From: Planctomycetota bacterium
GTDB lineage: Bacteria > Planctomycetota > SZUA-567
Assembly (NCBI GenBank): GCA_031270685.1
Contig: JAISXA010000035.1
Span: forward strand, 1-37,360
Reading direction: 5' to 3'
DNA: 37,360 nucleotides
Shown here: positions 1,409-36,090 of the stretch, piece by piece
Numbering within the stretch: the stretch's first letter is position 1
How the letters are laid out: each line of letters opens with the position of its first letter
Notes under the pieces: model-generated
The model's input: the letters and a program-made list of their open reading frames with translations, nothing else
Told to the model about the DNA's origin: nothing
Databases searched by the model: none
Translations under genes and position numbers: made by a program

Positions 1409-1430
1409 TTCATGCTCCGTATTCATGCCG

Positions 1431-1561
1431 AAGTTTTGCAAAATGGCGATTAAACCGCCGATAGCCGCTTTGCAAAAAGCAAAACCGCCAGTGCCGCAAG
1501 GGTTATGATTGTTGCCAATTGGGCATTCGGCGGTTTGAATGCCCAATTGGCGAAAGTTCAG
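1431..1561 (+). repeat. Composite two-hairpin repeat, copy 1
   Basis: Two hairpins of 44 nt separated by 33 nt. Hairpin A spans 1434-1477 (18-nt arms, loop AAACCGCC, the reverse complement of GGCGGTTT). Hairpin C spans 1511-1554 (18-nt arms, loop GGCGGTTT). The spacer 1478-1510 contains GCCGCAAGG, shared with copies at 6076 and 35957. The copy fills the gap between the stop of the upstream hybrid kinase (1563) and the start of the next kinase. An imperfect direct repeat TTCATGCC/TTCAAGCC lies at 1422 and 1562. There is no T-run after either hairpin, so it is not a standard terminator, although a stem in an intercistronic gap could affect mRNA stability. Confidence 0.85.
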
Positions 1562-1562
1562 T

Positions 1563-4124
1563 TCAAGCCTTGATCCGCGCGAGCAGGATGTTCGCTCCCT
1601 CCGCCGCTTTTTTGAACTCCATCATCAGAACCAAATCCGCGATTTCGGATATGGCTTCGCCGGTTTTCCCGGTCGGCGGCGGAGCTTGCAGCCGCGCCAG
1701 CGCGGCGTCCATCGCGTCAATGTCTTTCGCCTCCAGCGCTGACCGCAAACGCCGCAACGTCTCCGCGATTTCCGGACTGACCCGCGTTTCGCCGTCTCCG
1801 GATCGCGCCGCCGCGACCTCCCCGATCCGCGCCGTCAGGACGGTCAGTTCTTCCCGAAACGGCGGAAGCTTGTCGCGGATCGCGGGCAGATCCGCCTCCC
1901 GGCCGGCTTTCTCCAACAAGGCCGCGCGTTGTGAAAGATCGTCCGCGCCGATGTTGGCCAAGGCGCTTTTCAGGGCGTGAACAAGAGTGGTGAAGGAGCG
2001 CAGGGAAGCATGGTCCGGCGTTTTCCCCAACAGTTCGGAACCGGCTTGCGCATCCCGGCAAAACATCGCCAGCAGTTCAAGATAGCGGCTTTTCGAGCCG
2101 CCGATCCGGGCCAGGCCGGCGGCCGCGTCAACGCCCGCGATTTCCGGAAGAATCGTCTCCGGCGGTTCGGCGGATAATGAATTTTTTTCGCCGTCCTCCT
2201 GCGCGTTCCGGCGCTTGCCTTCGGGAAGCCATTTTCTCAGCGCCGCGTCCAGCCTGGCCGTATCTATGGGCTTGGAAAGGAAGTCGTTGAAGCCGTTCTC
2301 CAGGAACATCTCCCGCATGCCGGACACGGCGTTGGCGGTCAGGGCGATAATGGGCATAGTCCGGCAGCGTTCGTCGCTCATGCCCCTGATGACATGAACC
2401 GCTTCCACCCCGTCCATTTCCGGCATCATGTGATCCATCAGCACAAGGTCGAAGGAGCGCTCCCGCACCAGTTCCACCGCTTCCCGCCCGTTCAGGCAGG
2501 TAAAGACGCGCAACCGGTAGGGCATAAGCAATCCCTCGGCCACCAGGAGATTGCTGGGAAAGTCGTCAACCACCAGCACCTCGGCCCCCGGCGCGGTGAA
2601 GGTGACGCGCTGCGTCTCCGGCCGGGTTGCCGTTACATCGGCGATATCCCCCATCGGCTTCCAGTCGGCCACGGTCTGAACCAGCGTGGCGGTGAAAACG
2701 GAGCCTTTGCCGTATTCGCTTTGCGCCGTGATGTCGCCCCCCATGGCCCGGCACAGACTCCGGGCTATGGTCAGGCCAAGGCCCGTGCCCTCGATTCCGC
2801 TGTTGTGTTTTTCGTCAACGCGTATGAATTCGCCGAACAACTTCAGCAAATCCTCGTCTTTGATGCCGCTGCCGCTGTCCTCCACCGTGAAGGCCAGCCG
2901 GATCGTATCCTCCGCAACCGGTTCCCCGGAAACGGCGAATTTGACGTAGCCTTTTTTTGTGTACTTCACGGCGTTGCCGAGGAGGTTGAGCAAGATCTGC
3001 CTGATGCGGCCGGCGTCGCCGACCATGCCGCCGGGAATGTCGGGCGACGCGTCCAGGATCAGTTCCAGCGGCGTTTCCGCCATGCGGACGCGGATGATGA
3101 CCAATACATCGTTCAGGAGGGAAGCCGTTTCGTACGGGGCGGAAGCCATGGACAGGTTGCCGGACTCGATTTTGGAAAAGTCAAGGATGTCGTTGATGAT
3201 GGCCAGCAGGCTGGCCCCGGCGTTTTTGATGCCGGTGATGTACTCCAGGGCCTTTGGTTGGCCGTGTTCCCGCAGCGCCAGTTCGCTCAGGCCGATGATC
3301 GCGTTCATCGGGGTTCTGATCTCGTGGCTGGTGCGGGCGAGAAAGTCGCTTTTGGCTTGGTTGGCGGCCGTCACTTTTTGATTCAGGTCCACCAATTCAC
3401 TATTTTTCTTGATTATCGTATTGAGCAGGGAGCGATACAGAAAGAAGCCTATCCCGATGAAAAAGGTCACAAACACCGCCAATCTTTTTATATTCGAATA
3501 AATCATATCGCGTATGCTGGTTGCTTCGAAATCGCACCCGAGAACTCCGACCACATCGCCCCTGGAGTTGAAAATCGGCACATAAGTGGCGATCAATACG
3601 CCCCAGGAAACTTGAAAGTACATTTTGGAAAATTGAGGAGATTTAGTTTCGTACGTGCGCAAATAGGCGTCATCGTATTCGTCTATCGGTTCTTCGGCGC
3701 CAAGAGGGGAAAATATTTTCTCCCCCGGTTTTCCGCTGCCGTCGATGATAAAACGATGAATGGAGCCGGCGTATGGAACCATGGTATAAAGATAAAGACA
3801 ACCGGTTTCCTCTTTTATCCGCAGGAGTTTTTTTTGTGTTTCCAGGTAAAATGGATCATGAGGATCAAGCGTTTCCGCCAGGCGCTCAAAAGCGTCTCCG
3901 TCAATGATGGCTGCCGCTCGTTGGGCGATGGGAAGACCCATACGGGTATTGACGAGAGAAGATACATCTTCAATCTGTTGAATGGTATTTACCATGGTTA
4001 CTAAAAATATTATTCCAATAAAAGATGTAAAAAAAATGATAAATCGAATCTGCGGCGATCTGTGCGCAGACATTGAAGATTTGCGTAAACGGATGATTAA
4101 CGGCTCCATGAAACAGGCGAACAT
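1563..4124 (-). CDS. Hybrid histidine kinase with receiver and HPt domains
   Basis: An 853-residue multistep phosphorelay sensor. Visible domains in order: membrane segment about 27-46; extracytoplasmic Cache/PAS-like sensor about 50-205; membrane segment about 213-232; short coiled linker; HisKA with SHEIRTP (His267); HATPase with NLLGNAVKY and GLGLTIARS (about 380-480); receiver domain about 515-632 with phospho-acceptor Asp564 in LVLMDHMMP and the conserved Lys in LSKPI; HPt domain about 665-770 with His717 in TTLVHALKS. A helical tail follows. This is the BarA/RpfC-type arrangement, in which phosphate passes His-Asp-His to an external regulator. The likely partner is the HD-GYP regulator encoded 30 bases upstream in the same direction, an inference from position. 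The start at 4124 has a GGAA-type site; a Met at residue 18 is an alternative. The region after the stop is occupied by repeat copy 1. Confidence 0.95.
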   Translation of the reverse strand: MFACFMEPLIIRLRKSSMSAHRSPQIRFIIFFTSFIGIIFLVTMVNTIQQIEDVSSLVNTRMGLPIAQRAAAIIDGDAFERLAETLDPHDPFYLETQKKLLRIKEETGCLYLYTMVPYAGSIHRFIIDGSGKPGEKIFSPLGAEEPIDEYDDAYLRTYETKSPQFSKMYFQVSWGVLIATYVPIFNSRGDVVGVLGCDFEATSIRDMIYSNIKRLAVFVTFFIGIGFFLYRSLLNTIIKKNSELVDLNQKVTAANQAKSDFLARTSHEIRTPMNAIIGLSELALREHGQPKALEYITGIKNAGASLLAIINDILDFSKIESGNLSMASAPYETASLLNDVLVIIRVRMAETPLELILDASPDIPGGMVGDAGRIRQILLNLLGNAVKYTKKGYVKFAVSGEPVAEDTIRLAFTVEDSGSGIKDEDLLKLFGEFIRVDEKHNSGIEGTGLGLTIARSLCRAMGGDITAQSEYGKGSVFTATLVQTVADWKPMGDIADVTATRPETQRVTFTAPGAEVLVVDDFPSNLLVAEGLLMPYRLRVFTCLNGREAVELVRERSFDLVLMDHMMPEMDGVEAVHVIRGMSDERCRTMPIIALTANAVSGMREMFLENGFNDFLSKPIDTARLDAALRKWLPEGKRRNAQEDGEKNSLSAEPPETILPEIAGVDAAAGLARIGGSKSRYLELLAMFCRDAQAGSELLGKTPDHASLRSFTTLVHALKSALANIGADDLSQRAALLEKAGREADLPAIRDKLPPFREELTVLTARIGEVAAARSGDGETRVSPEIAETLRRLRSALEAKDIDAMDAALARLQAPPPTGKTGEAISEIADLVLMMEFKKAAEGANILLARIKA

Positions 4125-5572: not shown

Positions 5573-5961
5573 CCGCTGCGACCAATTGCGGCATTTTGGG
5601 TCGCGTTTTTTGCGCCCGGAGAGGGCTACAAAATCCGGCAGATCATCCGGAAACGGCCAGGACTCCCGGGCGTCGCGTCGCATCCCGTCGCCAAGGATGG
5701 CGATCATGGGAATTATGGTAAACAAACTTTGCCGCCCAGGCAACAACAAAATCGCGCATATCGCCAGGTTCGCCGACATCGCTTCCGGCTGGCGGGACCC
5801 GCGGCGCGGCGTGCGGAGGAACCCGGAATTTTCGGGAAAAATTGCGAGAAGACTTGCATTCCGCGGCCCGCTGTCCAAAATTGTCTTTTAACCGGAGTTT
5901 TGCGGTACAGTGGACTTCAATATACACCGTCGCGCGGGACGCTGAAAAGACCGCCCTGGAC

Positions 5962-6005
5962 TTTTGAAGAAAATCAAACGGCGGTTTGCTTGATTCCCTT
6001 CAAAA
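5962..6005 (+). repeat. Single hairpin repeat, 18-8-18 type
   Basis: Arms TTTTGAAGAAAATCAAAC (5962-5979) and GCTTGATTCCCTTCAAAA (5988-6005) pair at 15 of 18 positions around loop GGCGGTTT. The preceding bases TGGACTT match the family's end motif. It ends 45 bases before the DcrB-like start codon, so it may lie in that gene's leader. Confidence 0.8.
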
Positions 6006-6050: not shown

Positions 6051-6764
6051 ATGTCGAAGAGGATATTGTTCACCGGGGTTTTGCCGAATGGCGGTTGCGC
6101 CGCCAAGCGCCGCTTTGCGAAAATCGGGAACGCCGGCGCCGCAAGGATTGTGATTTTTACCACTTGGGCATTCGGCGGCTTGAACGCCCAAGTGGCGAAA
6201 ATTCGGTTGTTCACCGTGATTTCAGCGTTCGCGGTCATGCTTCCGGTCGCGGCGGCCGAAGAGGCCGACTGGGTTCGCCGGGGTTTTTTCAATAATGTGC
6301 TTACCGTCGCCATGCCTCCGGACTGGCATTACGAGGTCCACCCCAACGGCATCAACGTCAGCGTCATGCCGGAACCGGATTCCCCCTCGCGCGTCCACTT
6401 CACCGTCCCGAATCCCGAGTTCGGCGACGATATCGAGGAATATCTCCGCGCCAACGTCAAAAACATCATGGAGGCGACGGCCGAATACGGGGAGGCCCGG
6501 ATACTCGAGGATCGGGACGAGACCTTCGGCGGCTATCCCGGCTACCTCATCGGGTTCGCGCTCGGCATCGACAACTCCGAACCGCTGATCATGGTCGCCA
6601 TGGGCGTCGCCCACAACGGCTATTGCTCGATGGCCCTGACCATGACTCCGCGATCCGCCATGAACGAGGTCAAGGAGCTCGGCCGGATCGTCGAGACCCT
6701 TCGCTACGACGATCAAAAATTAAGGGAAAACGCCGACTGGCTCCGCTCGTTCATCAACCCTTAG
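6051..6764 (+). CDS. DcrB/PsbP-like exported protein with a repeat inserted in its signal peptide
   Basis: A 237-residue protein whose body (after about residue 70) resembles the small Mog1/PsbP/DcrB fold: a strand-rich start (LTVAMPPDWHYEV), a central GGYPGYLIGF segment and a closing helix. No enzyme motif is seen; a periplasmic accessory role is a guess. The N-terminus is remarkable. Codons 6-52 are a composite hairpin repeat flanked by two copies of TTGTTCACCG (6066-6075 and 6207-6216). Deleting one repeat unit leaves MSKRILFTVISAFAVML followed by PVAAAEE, an ordinary signal peptide, and a protein of 190 residues. As it stands the hydrophobic stretch KIRLFTVISAFAVML is internal and may or may not still direct export. 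The start at 6051 has GGAGAAGGA directly before it. The alpha-2-macroglobulin gene follows 101 bases later. Confidence 0.85.
   Translation: MSKRILFTGVLPNGGCAAKRRFAKIGNAGAARIVIFTTWAFGGLNAQVAKIRLFTVISAFAVMLPVAAAEEADWVRRGFFNNVLTVAMPPDWHYEVHPNGINVSVMPEPDSPSRVHFTVPNPEFGDDIEEYLRANVKNIMEATAEYGEARILEDRDETFGGYPGYLIGFALGIDNSEPLIMVAMGVAHNGYCSMALTMTPRSAMNEVKELGRIVETLRYDDQKLRENADWLRSFINP
6076..6206 (+). repeat. Composite two-hairpin repeat, copy 2, inserted inside a coding region
   Basis: Hairpin A spans 6079-6122 (loop GCGCCGCC), the spacer 6123-6155 is exactly 33 nt and contains GCCGCAAGG, and hairpin C spans 6156-6199 (loop GGCGGCTT). Same orientation and lengths as copy 1. Perfect 10-bp direct repeats TTGTTCACCG flank it at 6066-6075 and 6207-6216, as expected for a target duplication. 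The repeat period is 141 bases, divisible by three, and there is no stop in the host frame. Confidence 0.9.
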
Positions 6765-30574: not shown

Positions 30575-31042
30575 CTTCTCCTCCTTCACGGCAACGACAA
30601 AAAAATGCCCAATGTCTTCAATCAAACCCGTTATCGAACCCCATTTTTCCCCTTTGTCCGATAATGGGGGAATGGCGAATCTATCGCCAACATATATTCA
30701 TTCGTTTATTTCACCGGAATGCCCCCATCTTGTCAAGGAAAAAATGACTTTCCCCCGATTTATGGTCGGGAACAATCCCCTGATAATATCGGCTGCGCGG
30801 AAAACGGCGGCCGCATCAAACAACCCGGTTGCGGAACAATTGCACGTTTCATATATCACACTTAAGTCTATATGGCTAAAGGCGCCGTCTCCCGGGCGGG
30901 CAAATTGATTAAACCATCCCGCCGCCGGACATGGTCGACATTATATAATATTTCCCGAATTCGCGAAAATATTTCAAAAAAACCCGCCTTCAACCGGAAG
31001 CGGAGAAAAAGCCGCTTTTCGGCGGTTTGGACGATAGTTGAC

Positions 31043-31086
31043 TTTTGGAGAAAATCAAACAAACCGCCGTTTGATTTTCTCCAAAG
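31043..31086 (-). repeat. Hairpin repeat, 18-8-18 type, reverse orientation
   Basis: TTTTGGAGAAAATCAAAC (31043-31060) pairs at 17 of 18 positions with 31069-31086 around AAACCGCC, the reverse complement of the family loop. The preceding ATAGTTGAC is the family end motif. With the hairpin at 31185 it may form one two-hairpin element with a 98-nt spacer. Confidence 0.85.
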
Positions 31087-31184
31087 TTTCTTGGGTTTCC
31101 ATTTTACGTCGGGAATTATTGCAACGTCGGCGGCATCGCCCGACAGGACGAAAAATCAACCCATTGGCTCATAAGCAGTAACAT

Positions 31185-31228
31185 CTTTGGAGGAAATCGG
31201 GCGGTGGTTGGCCCGATTTCCTCCAAAA
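31185..31228 (+). repeat. Hairpin repeat, 18-8-18 type
   Basis: CTTTGGAGGAAATCGGGC (31185-31202) pairs at 17 of 18 positions with 31211-31228 around GGTGGTTG, followed by the end motif GTCCAC. The 59 bases 31176-31234, including the preceding CAGTAACATC, are nearly identical to 33798-33855. Confidence 0.85.
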
Positions 31229-31328
31229 GTCCACCGATAGCGAGTCGCCAACCGCTATCGTAAGCATACCCTCCGGCTTCTTCTTAAGCAAGCAAATTCG
31301 GCGCCGATCGTCGCCGCCGCGTTCGCGC

Positions 31329-31357: not shown

Positions 31358-31608
31358 GGACTTTTGGTTGCGGCCGAGCAATGCCGTGTCGCGGGGAAGG
31401 AAGGAGTAATCCTGACGGGAACGTGACGATGCTGTCCAGCGGGTGCGAAACCCGTCCGGCGAAGACAAAGCCCTGTCAGCCGGTAGCCAGCCTTGCGTTC
31501 GCGACAGCAATGCGGCGGACGATGCGTAGGCGGGCGAATACGCGGGCCGGGGGTGGTCCGGCATCGAAAACACTTACTCCCGGGCGCCCAAGGGTTCAAA
31601 AGTCCACT
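31355..31608 (+). ncRNA. Candidate structured leader RNA or structured element upstream of the flavodiiron gene
   Basis: The outermost 12 bases pair perfectly (AGTGGACTTTTG at 31355-31366 with 31597-31608). Inside are several local stems: AGGA-GTAA-TCCT (31402-31413); CGGGT-GCGAA-ACCCG (31440-31454); CCGGC/GCCGG (31456-31460 with 31479-31483) enclosing GACA/TGTC; GCGTA/TACGC (31524-31528 with 31539-31543); and GCCGG/CCGGC (31546-31550 with 31558-31562). CGATGC (31520) can close the last two with GCATCG (31561), in competition with the outer pairs of each. GGAGTAA (31403) can alternatively pair with TTACTCC (31574). The ribosome site GGAAGGAGG lies just after the end. No Rfam class could be assigned by eye. 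If transcription starts near 31364 as the -10 box predicts, part of the outer stem is not in the RNA, so the ends may instead be DNA-level features of a mobile element. Confidence 0.5.
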
Positions 31609-31627
31609 TGGAAGGAGGCGCATAAAA

Positions 31628-32839
31628 ATGCGCACATCGTTATGCGGGAACATCGACTGGGTAGGGGCGATAGATTGGAATGTACGCGATTTTCATTCCT
31701 ACGTCACCGATCGCGGCGCCACCTATAATTCGTATTTGATCCGGGACAGGGAGAATGCGGTCATCGACCCGGTGAAGGGACCGTTTTTTAAACGTTGGCT
31801 GGAAAACATCGGGAAGTTCGTCGATCCCGACTCGATTCGCAGCCTGATAATCAATCATGCCGAGCTTGATCACTCCTCCGCGCTGCCGATGGCGGTGAAG
31901 GCGTTCCCGAAGGCGGAACTCGTCACCAACAAGAAGTGCCGCGATACGCTGGTCAGCTATTTCGGCGGCGAGGAATGGAATTGGCGGCTGGTAAAGACGG
32001 GGGACGAGATCTCTCTCGGCTCGCGCACCCTGCGCTTTATCGAAACGCCCATGGTCCACTGGCCCGACTCCATGTTCACCTACGTACCGGAGGACGGGCT
32101 GCTGTTCTCTATGGACGCCTTCGGCCAGCATTTCGCATCCTCGGCGCGGTTCGACGACGAAGTGGATTTCGACATCGTCATGGAGGAGGCGAAGACCTAT
32201 TACGCCAACATCGTCATACCCTACGGGAACTTCGTCCGGAAGGCCATGGCCGCCGCGGCCGGACTCGACGTCAGGATGATCGCCCCCTCGCACGGCCTGG
32301 TCTGGCGCTCGCACGCCGCTGAAATTCTCGCCGCCTACCGGGAGTGGATGGTCAACAGGAACCGGCGCAAGGTCATCGTCTTTTACGATTCCATGTGGGA
32401 CAGCACCGCGCTAATCGGCGAGGCGATCCTCGACGGCGCGACCGTACCCGGGGTCGAGACCGACCTGATCCACGTCAGGCATGCGAACCTGACCAAAATA
32501 GCGACCTCCTTCATGGACGCGGCCGCGTTCGCGTTCGGATCGGCGACCCTGAACGGGCTGCTTATGCCGACCGCGGCGGCGGCGCTCGTCTACATGGAGG
32601 GCATGCGCGTCCCCAACAAGGCCGCCTTCGCCTTCGGATCTTACGGCTGGGCCGCGAAGGGCGGTCCGGACCAGGTCGAGGAATACCTGAGGCGCGGCAA
32701 ATACGAGATAATCCGCCCGCCGCTGAAATGCCCCTACCGCCCGACGCCGGAGTTGCTGGCGGAGGCGAGACAGGCGGGCGGCGAACTTGCGGGGAAGGCG
32801 CTCGAGGCGGCGGAATATAAGCCGGAACATGGACATTGA
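31628..32839 (+). CDS. Flavodiiron protein (FprA-type A flavoprotein)
   Basis: A 403-residue cytoplasmic enzyme that reduces oxygen to water or nitric oxide to nitrous oxide, protecting anaerobes. The N-terminal metallo-beta-lactamase-like half carries the diiron ligands: NHAELDH (His77, Glu79, Asp81 and adjacent His82), His144 in MVHWPDS, Asp163 in FSMDAFGQH and His222 in APSHG. The C-terminal flavodoxin half (from about 245) begins VIVFYDSMWDST, the FMN phosphate loop. There is no fused rubredoxin or reductase domain, so a separate electron donor is needed; none is encoded here. ATG at 31628 has a strong GGAAGGAGG site. It is preceded by the candidate structured leader and overlaps the glycosyltransferase start by one base. 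Confidence 0.96.
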   Translation: MRTSLCGNIDWVGAIDWNVRDFHSYVTDRGATYNSYLIRDRENAVIDPVKGPFFKRWLENIGKFVDPDSIRSLIINHAELDHSSALPMAVKAFPKAELVTNKKCRDTLVSYFGGEEWNWRLVKTGDEISLGSRTLRFIETPMVHWPDSMFTYVPEDGLLFSMDAFGQHFASSARFDDEVDFDIVMEEAKTYYANIVIPYGNFVRKAMAAAAGLDVRMIAPSHGLVWRSHAAEILAAYREWMVNRNRRKVIVFYDSMWDSTALIGEAILDGATVPGVETDLIHVRHANLTKIATSFMDAAAFAFGSATLNGLLMPTAAAALVYMEGMRVPNKAAFAFGSYGWAAKGGPDQVEEYLRRGKYEIIRPPLKCPYRPTPELLAEARQAGGELAGKALEAAEYKPEHGH

Positions 32840-33767: not shown

Positions 33768-33796
33768 TTGACATTTTCGCCGCCTTTTGTTATTAA
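33768..33796 (+). promoter_or_regulatory. Possible distal promoter upstream of the chemotaxis receptor gene
   Basis: A consensus TTGACA (33768-33773) is followed after 17 bases by TATTAA (33791-33796), a weaker -10 match. A transcript from here would carry the hairpin at 33807 in its leader. Confidence 0.4.
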
Positions 33797-33806
33797 ACAG
33801 TAACAT

Positions 33807-33849
33807 CTTTGGAGGAAATCGGGCGGCGGTTGGCCCGATTTCTCCAAAA
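33807..33849 (+). repeat. Hairpin repeat, one base short of 18-8-18
   Basis: CTTTGGAGGAAATCGGGC (33807-33824), loop GGCGGTTG (33825-33832) and arm 33833-33849, followed by the end motif GTCCAC. The enclosing 58 bases (33798-33855) match 31176-31234 except for one substitution and one missing base. No T-run follows. Confidence 0.85.
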
Positions 33850-33876
33850 GTCCACTCAAAAGGCCACTCCAAATGA

Positions 33877-35956: not shown

Positions 35957-36090
35957 GTGAACTTTTACAAATTGGGCATTCAAACCGCCGCATGCCCAAT
36001 TTGTAAAAATCGCGCTCCTTGCGGCGCAAGCGTTTTTGATTTTTGCAAAGCGGCGATTGGCGATTTAATCGCCGCTTTGCAAAACTTCGG
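35957..36090 (-). repeat. Composite two-hairpin repeat, copy 3 (reverse orientation)
   Basis: Hairpin C spans 35964-36007 (loop AAACCGCC), the spacer 36008-36040 is exactly 33 nt and contains CCTTGCGGC, the complement of the shared core, and hairpin A spans 36041-36084 with a perfect 18-bp stem and loop GGCGATTT. The outer end reads ATAGTGAACTTTT. It is the reverse complement of the arrangement at 1431 and 6076. Only a 4-base direct repeat (ATAG) is seen at the ends. It fills the gap between the chemoreceptor stop and the AraC-type gene. Confidence 0.88.

Follow-up and report, generated by a model that had tools for sequence, protein, structure and literature searches.

The window, the whole 37,360-nt stretch analyzed here, is contig C237 of a 3.18-Mb Planctomycetota-affiliated MAG that is 88.65% complete. 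It contains three copies of a unit made of two hairpins separated by a short spacer, two on the forward strand and one reversed (Table 1). All three had been recognized in an earlier sequence-only reading, and all could be aligned. The opposed orientation of the two hairpins and the presence of the GCCGCAAGG motif in the spacer, both claimed in that reading, proved correct. Its proposed start of copy 1, position 1431, lies 3 nt inside the real boundary. The proposed layout of 44 + 33 + 44 nt stands for the left hairpin, which consists of 18 pairs and an 8-nt loop; the right hairpin measures 44 to 46 nt, according to how the last T-A pair is treated, the spacer is then 32 to 33 nt, and the entire element is 134 bp long. 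At this length, the element has no coding capacity.

Other features of the window include members of a second MITE-like family, 198 bp long, which has the TIR GTGGACTTTTGGAG, target-site duplications (TSDs) of ~5 bp, and a hairpin with a GGCGG-type loop at each end. This family gave 158 matches (68 full) in 1.05 Mb of the same genome and 33 matches in 0.48 Mb of the relative G012. An Rfam match to group-II-D1D4-6 overlaps the start of a flavodiiron-like open reading frame, and a 300-bp direct repeat probably represents paralogous signaling-gene segments.

Table 1. Positions of the element, its parts, its derivatives and relics, and other features. Positions without a prefix refer to the window; empty cells, no entry.
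Feature	Position	Strand	Description
MITE copy 1	1428–1561	+	134 bp, CCGAAG...GTTCAG; nhmmer model and alignment A3
Left TSD, copy 1	1422–1427		TTCATG; 5/6 match to 1562–1567
Left hairpin, copy 1	1434–1477	+	44 nt; A3 columns 7–50, helix 1
Spacer motif, copy 1	1493–1501	+	GCCGCAAGG; columns 66–74, mostly invariant
Right hairpin, copy 1	1510–1555	+	columns 83–128, helix 2; homologous to right end of IS701-like IS
Right TSD, copy 1	1562–1567		TTCAAG; partner of 1422–1427
MITE copy 2	6073–6206	+	134 bp; nhmmer model and alignment A3
Left TSD, copy 2	6066–6072		TTGTTCA; perfect 7-bp repeat
Right TSD, copy 2	6207–6213		TTGTTCA; perfect 7-bp repeat
MITE copy 3	35957–36090	−	134 bp, reversed; TSD no longer recognizable
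Second MITE-like family, full copy	31037–31234		198 bp
Second MITE-like family, partial copies	33791–33855; 5936–6005		
group-II-D1D4-6 match	31447–31652		55.9 bits, E 3e-13, full model length
Flavodiiron-like ORF	31493–32839		
300-bp direct repeat	1–300; 2663–2962		78% identity
22-bp remnant	L062:15440–15461		CTGAAGTTTTGCAAAACTTCAG type; exact 6-bp TSD ATTCAA
22-bp remnant	L073:1853–1874		CTGAAGTTTTGCAAAACTTCAG type; exact 6-bp TSD CAATAA
56-bp single-hairpin form	L084:17030–17085		
Relic IS, sister genome G011	L170:1501–2466		966 bp; TIRs at both ends
Relic, sister genome G011	L173		IS left end and gene start
Relic, sister genome G011	L177		IS right end and gene end
Relic, own genome	C167:9436–9504		69-bp match
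330-bp element, G001:C10	L122:2802–3131		same TIRs, unrelated interior

Copy number, boundaries, and mobility

Genome-wide, ~175 cores of the right hairpin were found at ≤3 mismatches, compared to none in a reversed control. From part of the genome, we gathered 121 distinct copies, including 72 at full length. Exactly 134 bp was the length of 51 full copies, while 10 were 133 bp, 7 were 135 bp, and 4 had other lengths; 68 of the 72 thus fall within 133 to 135 bp, and the spacing is nearly fixed. The fixed spacing, as opposed to variable spacers, that the sequence-only reading had proposed from three copies therefore holds in the genome-wide alignment. Pairwise identity of the 134-bp copies has a mean of 87% and a maximum of 98.5%. 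Since this indicates no very recent insertion, transposition of the family may have ceased. A simple codon-model gene caller marked 82% of the sequence as coding, and 20 of 95 copies fall mainly within the genes it called. A TIR scan of viral contigs returned nothing. In a GTDB scan, the matches were mostly single and scattered, apart from those in Pcl387_bin41, a sister Planctomycetota MAG. The host is placed in its phylum through kinship, and the isolate name might hint at a termite-gut origin.

The element ends in terminal inverted repeats (TIRs), CTGAAGTTTTGCAAA...TTTGCAAAACTTCAG, and the hairpins lie just inside them. Conservation breaks off sharply at the left-hand CTGAAG and the right-hand CTTCAG; beyond these points, the flanks are unique and AT-rich. 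When left flanks were compared to right flanks, excess matches were seen solely on the 6- and 7-bp diagonals adjoining the ends. Of 71 copies, 18 lie between perfect TSDs of 6 or 7 bp, whereas shuffled pairings gave an expectation of 0.60 and a maximum of 4. Allowing one mismatch raises the count to 35 of 71, compared to 3.7 expected and a maximum of 11. The target sites, of which 6 to 7 bp are duplicated, are AT-rich and mostly intergenic.

Empty sites were found for two copies. The locus of copy 1 is empty in G012, where both flanks are present at 76 to 77% identity; 63 nt lie between the flank segments in G012, versus 62 nt plus a 136-nt element match in the window. Another copy, L014, is nested in a different repeat family. 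G012 has several copies of this family without an interruption, in which the two flanks of L014 are contiguous and overlap by 4 nt; these copies represent the empty target. The element is thus short and non-coding, carries TIRs and TSDs, is dispersed in many copies, and has an empty orthologous site at copy 1, as is characteristic of MITEs. Since the TIRs and the 6- to 7-bp TSDs are present and no Y1/RAYT transposase was found in the 88.65% complete MAG, we conclude that the two-hairpin unit is a MITE and not a REPIN; it is probably not an RNA either.

Shortened derivatives of the element are also present. The sequence TTTGCAAA at the hairpin bases is a perfect palindrome and thus forms both direct and inverted repeats. 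Deletions between its copies would explain the 22-bp remnants, two of which have exact 6-bp TSDs, and the 56-bp single-hairpin forms.

Bacterial MITEs derived from IS ends include Correia/nemis of Neisseria and RUP of Streptococcus pneumoniae. Like them, the element described here is short, non-coding, hairpin-capable, and mostly intergenic, with TIRs, TSDs, and a high copy number. It differs from them in sequence and in partner, as well as in having two complete terminal hairpins, a fixed spacer, and a 6- to 7-bp AT-rich TSD.

Relation to IS701-like insertion sequences

The TIRs of the MITE also occur at both ends of a 966-bp relic IS in the sister genome G011. This relic carries transposase fragments, pieces of which match NCBIfam IS701. 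Together with two further relics from the same genome, one holding the left end and the gene start and the other the right end and the gene end (Table 1), it shows an IS701-like transposase between MITE-type TIRs. In ~30 copies from the own genome, the right 50 bp of the MITE, hairpin included, are mostly 81 to 88% identical to the right end of the 966-bp relic. The right 50 bp and both TIRs are thus common to the MITE and the IS701-like relics; no intact partner was found. A relic in the own genome matches as far as the 3′ region of the transposase, and therefore the IS once resided in this genome as well.

Individual MITE copies match their own reverse complement at ~72% over the whole element when compared with BLAST; for the consensus, compared ungapped and position by position, the value is 52%. 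Together with the homology to the right end of the IS, this self-match leads us to infer that the MITE probably consists of that IS end, duplicated in inverted orientation. Two observations speak against this origin: an intact IS with these TIRs was not found in the own genome, the MAG being 88.65% complete, and the left end of the IS has no hairpin. Multicopy ISs commonly fail to assemble.

The most likely course of events would be that the MITE arose by inverted duplication of one terminus, the right one, of an IS701-like insertion sequence, and that the DDE transposase of this IS may then have spread it in trans. The IS itself would by now be decayed or unassembled. Each hairpin would correspond to the TIR and a subterminal inverted copy of it. 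We assign a probability of roughly 0.88 to the reading that the unit is a 134-bp non-coding MITE, likely derived from the right-hand terminus of an IS701-like IS and spread in trans by its DDE transposase.

The likeness to IS701-family ISs (NCBIfam NF033540) lies in the relic IS with the same TIRs, the right-end hairpin, and the IS701-like transposase fragments; the partner here, unlike those ISs, is represented by relics only. The IS701-family element ISTth8 is listed with a 4-bp TSD (PMC6352166), whereas the MITE has TSDs of 6 to 7 bp and not the 4 bp expected of an IS701-derived element. For this reason, the IS701 assignment is tentative.

The same discrepancy in TSD length speaks for a MITE of identical anatomy moved by a different DDE family, e.g., one with native 6- to 7-bp TSDs. 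IS1380-like copies are present in the genome, and a 330-bp element in another genome, G001, shares the TIRs while having a different interior. However, the IS701-like relics alone combine TIRs of this type at both ends and the right hairpin of the MITE, and nested insertions best account for the proximity of IS1380 in contig C199. Mobilization by another DDE family is thus possible but, in our estimate, rather unlikely.

Several loci were considered as partners and rejected. Those with DDE_Tnp_1 have no matching TIR, and an intact IS701-like open reading frame in contig C122 is likewise without such a TIR. IS1380 was considered because of a TIR plus 28-nt match to the 330-bp element near an IS1380 fragment in C199; the IS1380 copies, when compared, indicate nested insertions. 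The 330-bp element itself stops at a contig end, and its parent was not found.

Stem covariation and the nature of the fold

The sequence-only reading had noted that base changes in the stems are paired, AATT/AATT in copy 1 becoming ACTT/AAGT in copy 2, and had taken this as an argument for a functional fold. The change is present in the alignment, at columns 91 and 120. Covariation was then assessed in both hairpins of 51 gapless copies. Twelve pairs were changed on both sides, compared to 6.4 in shuffles, and 47 double-changed cells were observed, compared to 13.2; none of 500 shuffles, a control that ignores relatedness, reached either value. When the partners were slid by 1 to 3 columns, 2 to 13 double-changed cells remained. 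Tree parsimony, which is rough on 134 columns, yielded 14 and 12 direct double events in the two helices (26 in sum), versus 0 to 3 per helix after sliding. Compensating changes are thus clearly in excess, as the paired changes in the window copies had suggested. The middle hairpin of the predicted fold (AAAAATC...GATTTTT) showed no covariation and the pairing of the outer ends no clear excess, indicating that covariation is confined to these two hairpins at the element ends.

Many of the double events are transversions that lack a G-U intermediate (A-T to C-G or T-A to G-C), and in several copies a single hairpin has two to four of them. Wobble-type pairs occur on both strands: with column pair 87-124 (A-C in 40 of 51 copies) left out, there are 48 G-T pairs on the plus strand and 35 A-C pairs, equivalent to G-T on the minus strand. 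The wobbles on both strands and the double transversions without a G-U route favor a process at the DNA level, and DNA hairpins fit both observations better than RNA does. In one proposal (PMC8794818), template switching between arms both gives rise to hairpins with compensatory changes and preserves them. In the MITE, the stems may be kept by such correction between arms, by selection on the ends because the transposition machinery would need them palindromic, or by both.

A more specific proposal is that the terminal hairpins serve as a folded-DNA signal, either a cruciform or a single-strand stem, for DDE-type machinery, with selection for shape keeping the stems. We consider this improbable; if true, it would make the element a DDE-mobilized MITE with structure-dependent ends, converging on REPIN/IS605 logic.

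Strong stem covariation, together with a consensus fold predicted to be stable (−58.5 kcal/mol), would also suit a conserved structured RNA, or a bidirectional terminator or mRNA stabilizer, selected as RNA. An RNA transcribed from one strand should, however, favor wobbles on that strand, and neither the abundant wobbles on both strands nor the many transversions without a G-U route agree with this. The element gave no match to Rfam 15 above the gathering score, the sole match in the window being the group II intron elsewhere. The 66 clearly intergenic copies are distributed among tandem (34), divergent (20), and convergent (12) gaps in a way that tracks the share of each type in gap length; convergent gaps, which make up 18% of it, are not preferred, and the distribution gives no sign of a terminator role. 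Moreover, the TSDs and the empty site demonstrate mobility. Selection as RNA is therefore very unlikely, and the functional fold proposed earlier survives as a fold at the DNA level, with nothing pointing to a transcribed RNA.

The comparison to REPIN units, i.e., inverted pairs of REP hairpins moved by a RAYT (Y1 HUH) transposase on single-stranded DNA, holds for the layout of two opposed palindromes at fixed spacing, in high copy number and mostly extragenic (PMC3116915), as well as for a clover-like fold predicted for the consensus, but is otherwise largely refuted and hardly credible: no PF01797 (Y1/RAYT) match was found in the 88.65% complete MAG, whereas control genomes did match; the hairpin foot is CTGAAG, with no GTAG-type guide tetranucleotide; and the TIRs and 6- to 7-bp TSDs come from a DDE mechanism, not from HUH. 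Elements derived from IS200/IS605 similarly have hairpins close to both ends, but they make no TSDs and depend on a Y1 transposase, for which the search of this genome was negative.

The MITE family is new, while the kind of element is already known. It adds to the Planctomycetota a high-copy MITE family whose IS origin can be traced. It also calls for caution, since a palindromic-ended mobile element can yield strong and clean stem covariation of the sort usually taken for functional RNA. With its double transversions and wobbles on both strands, the family may provide a test bed for distinguishing template switching from selection on DNA shape.
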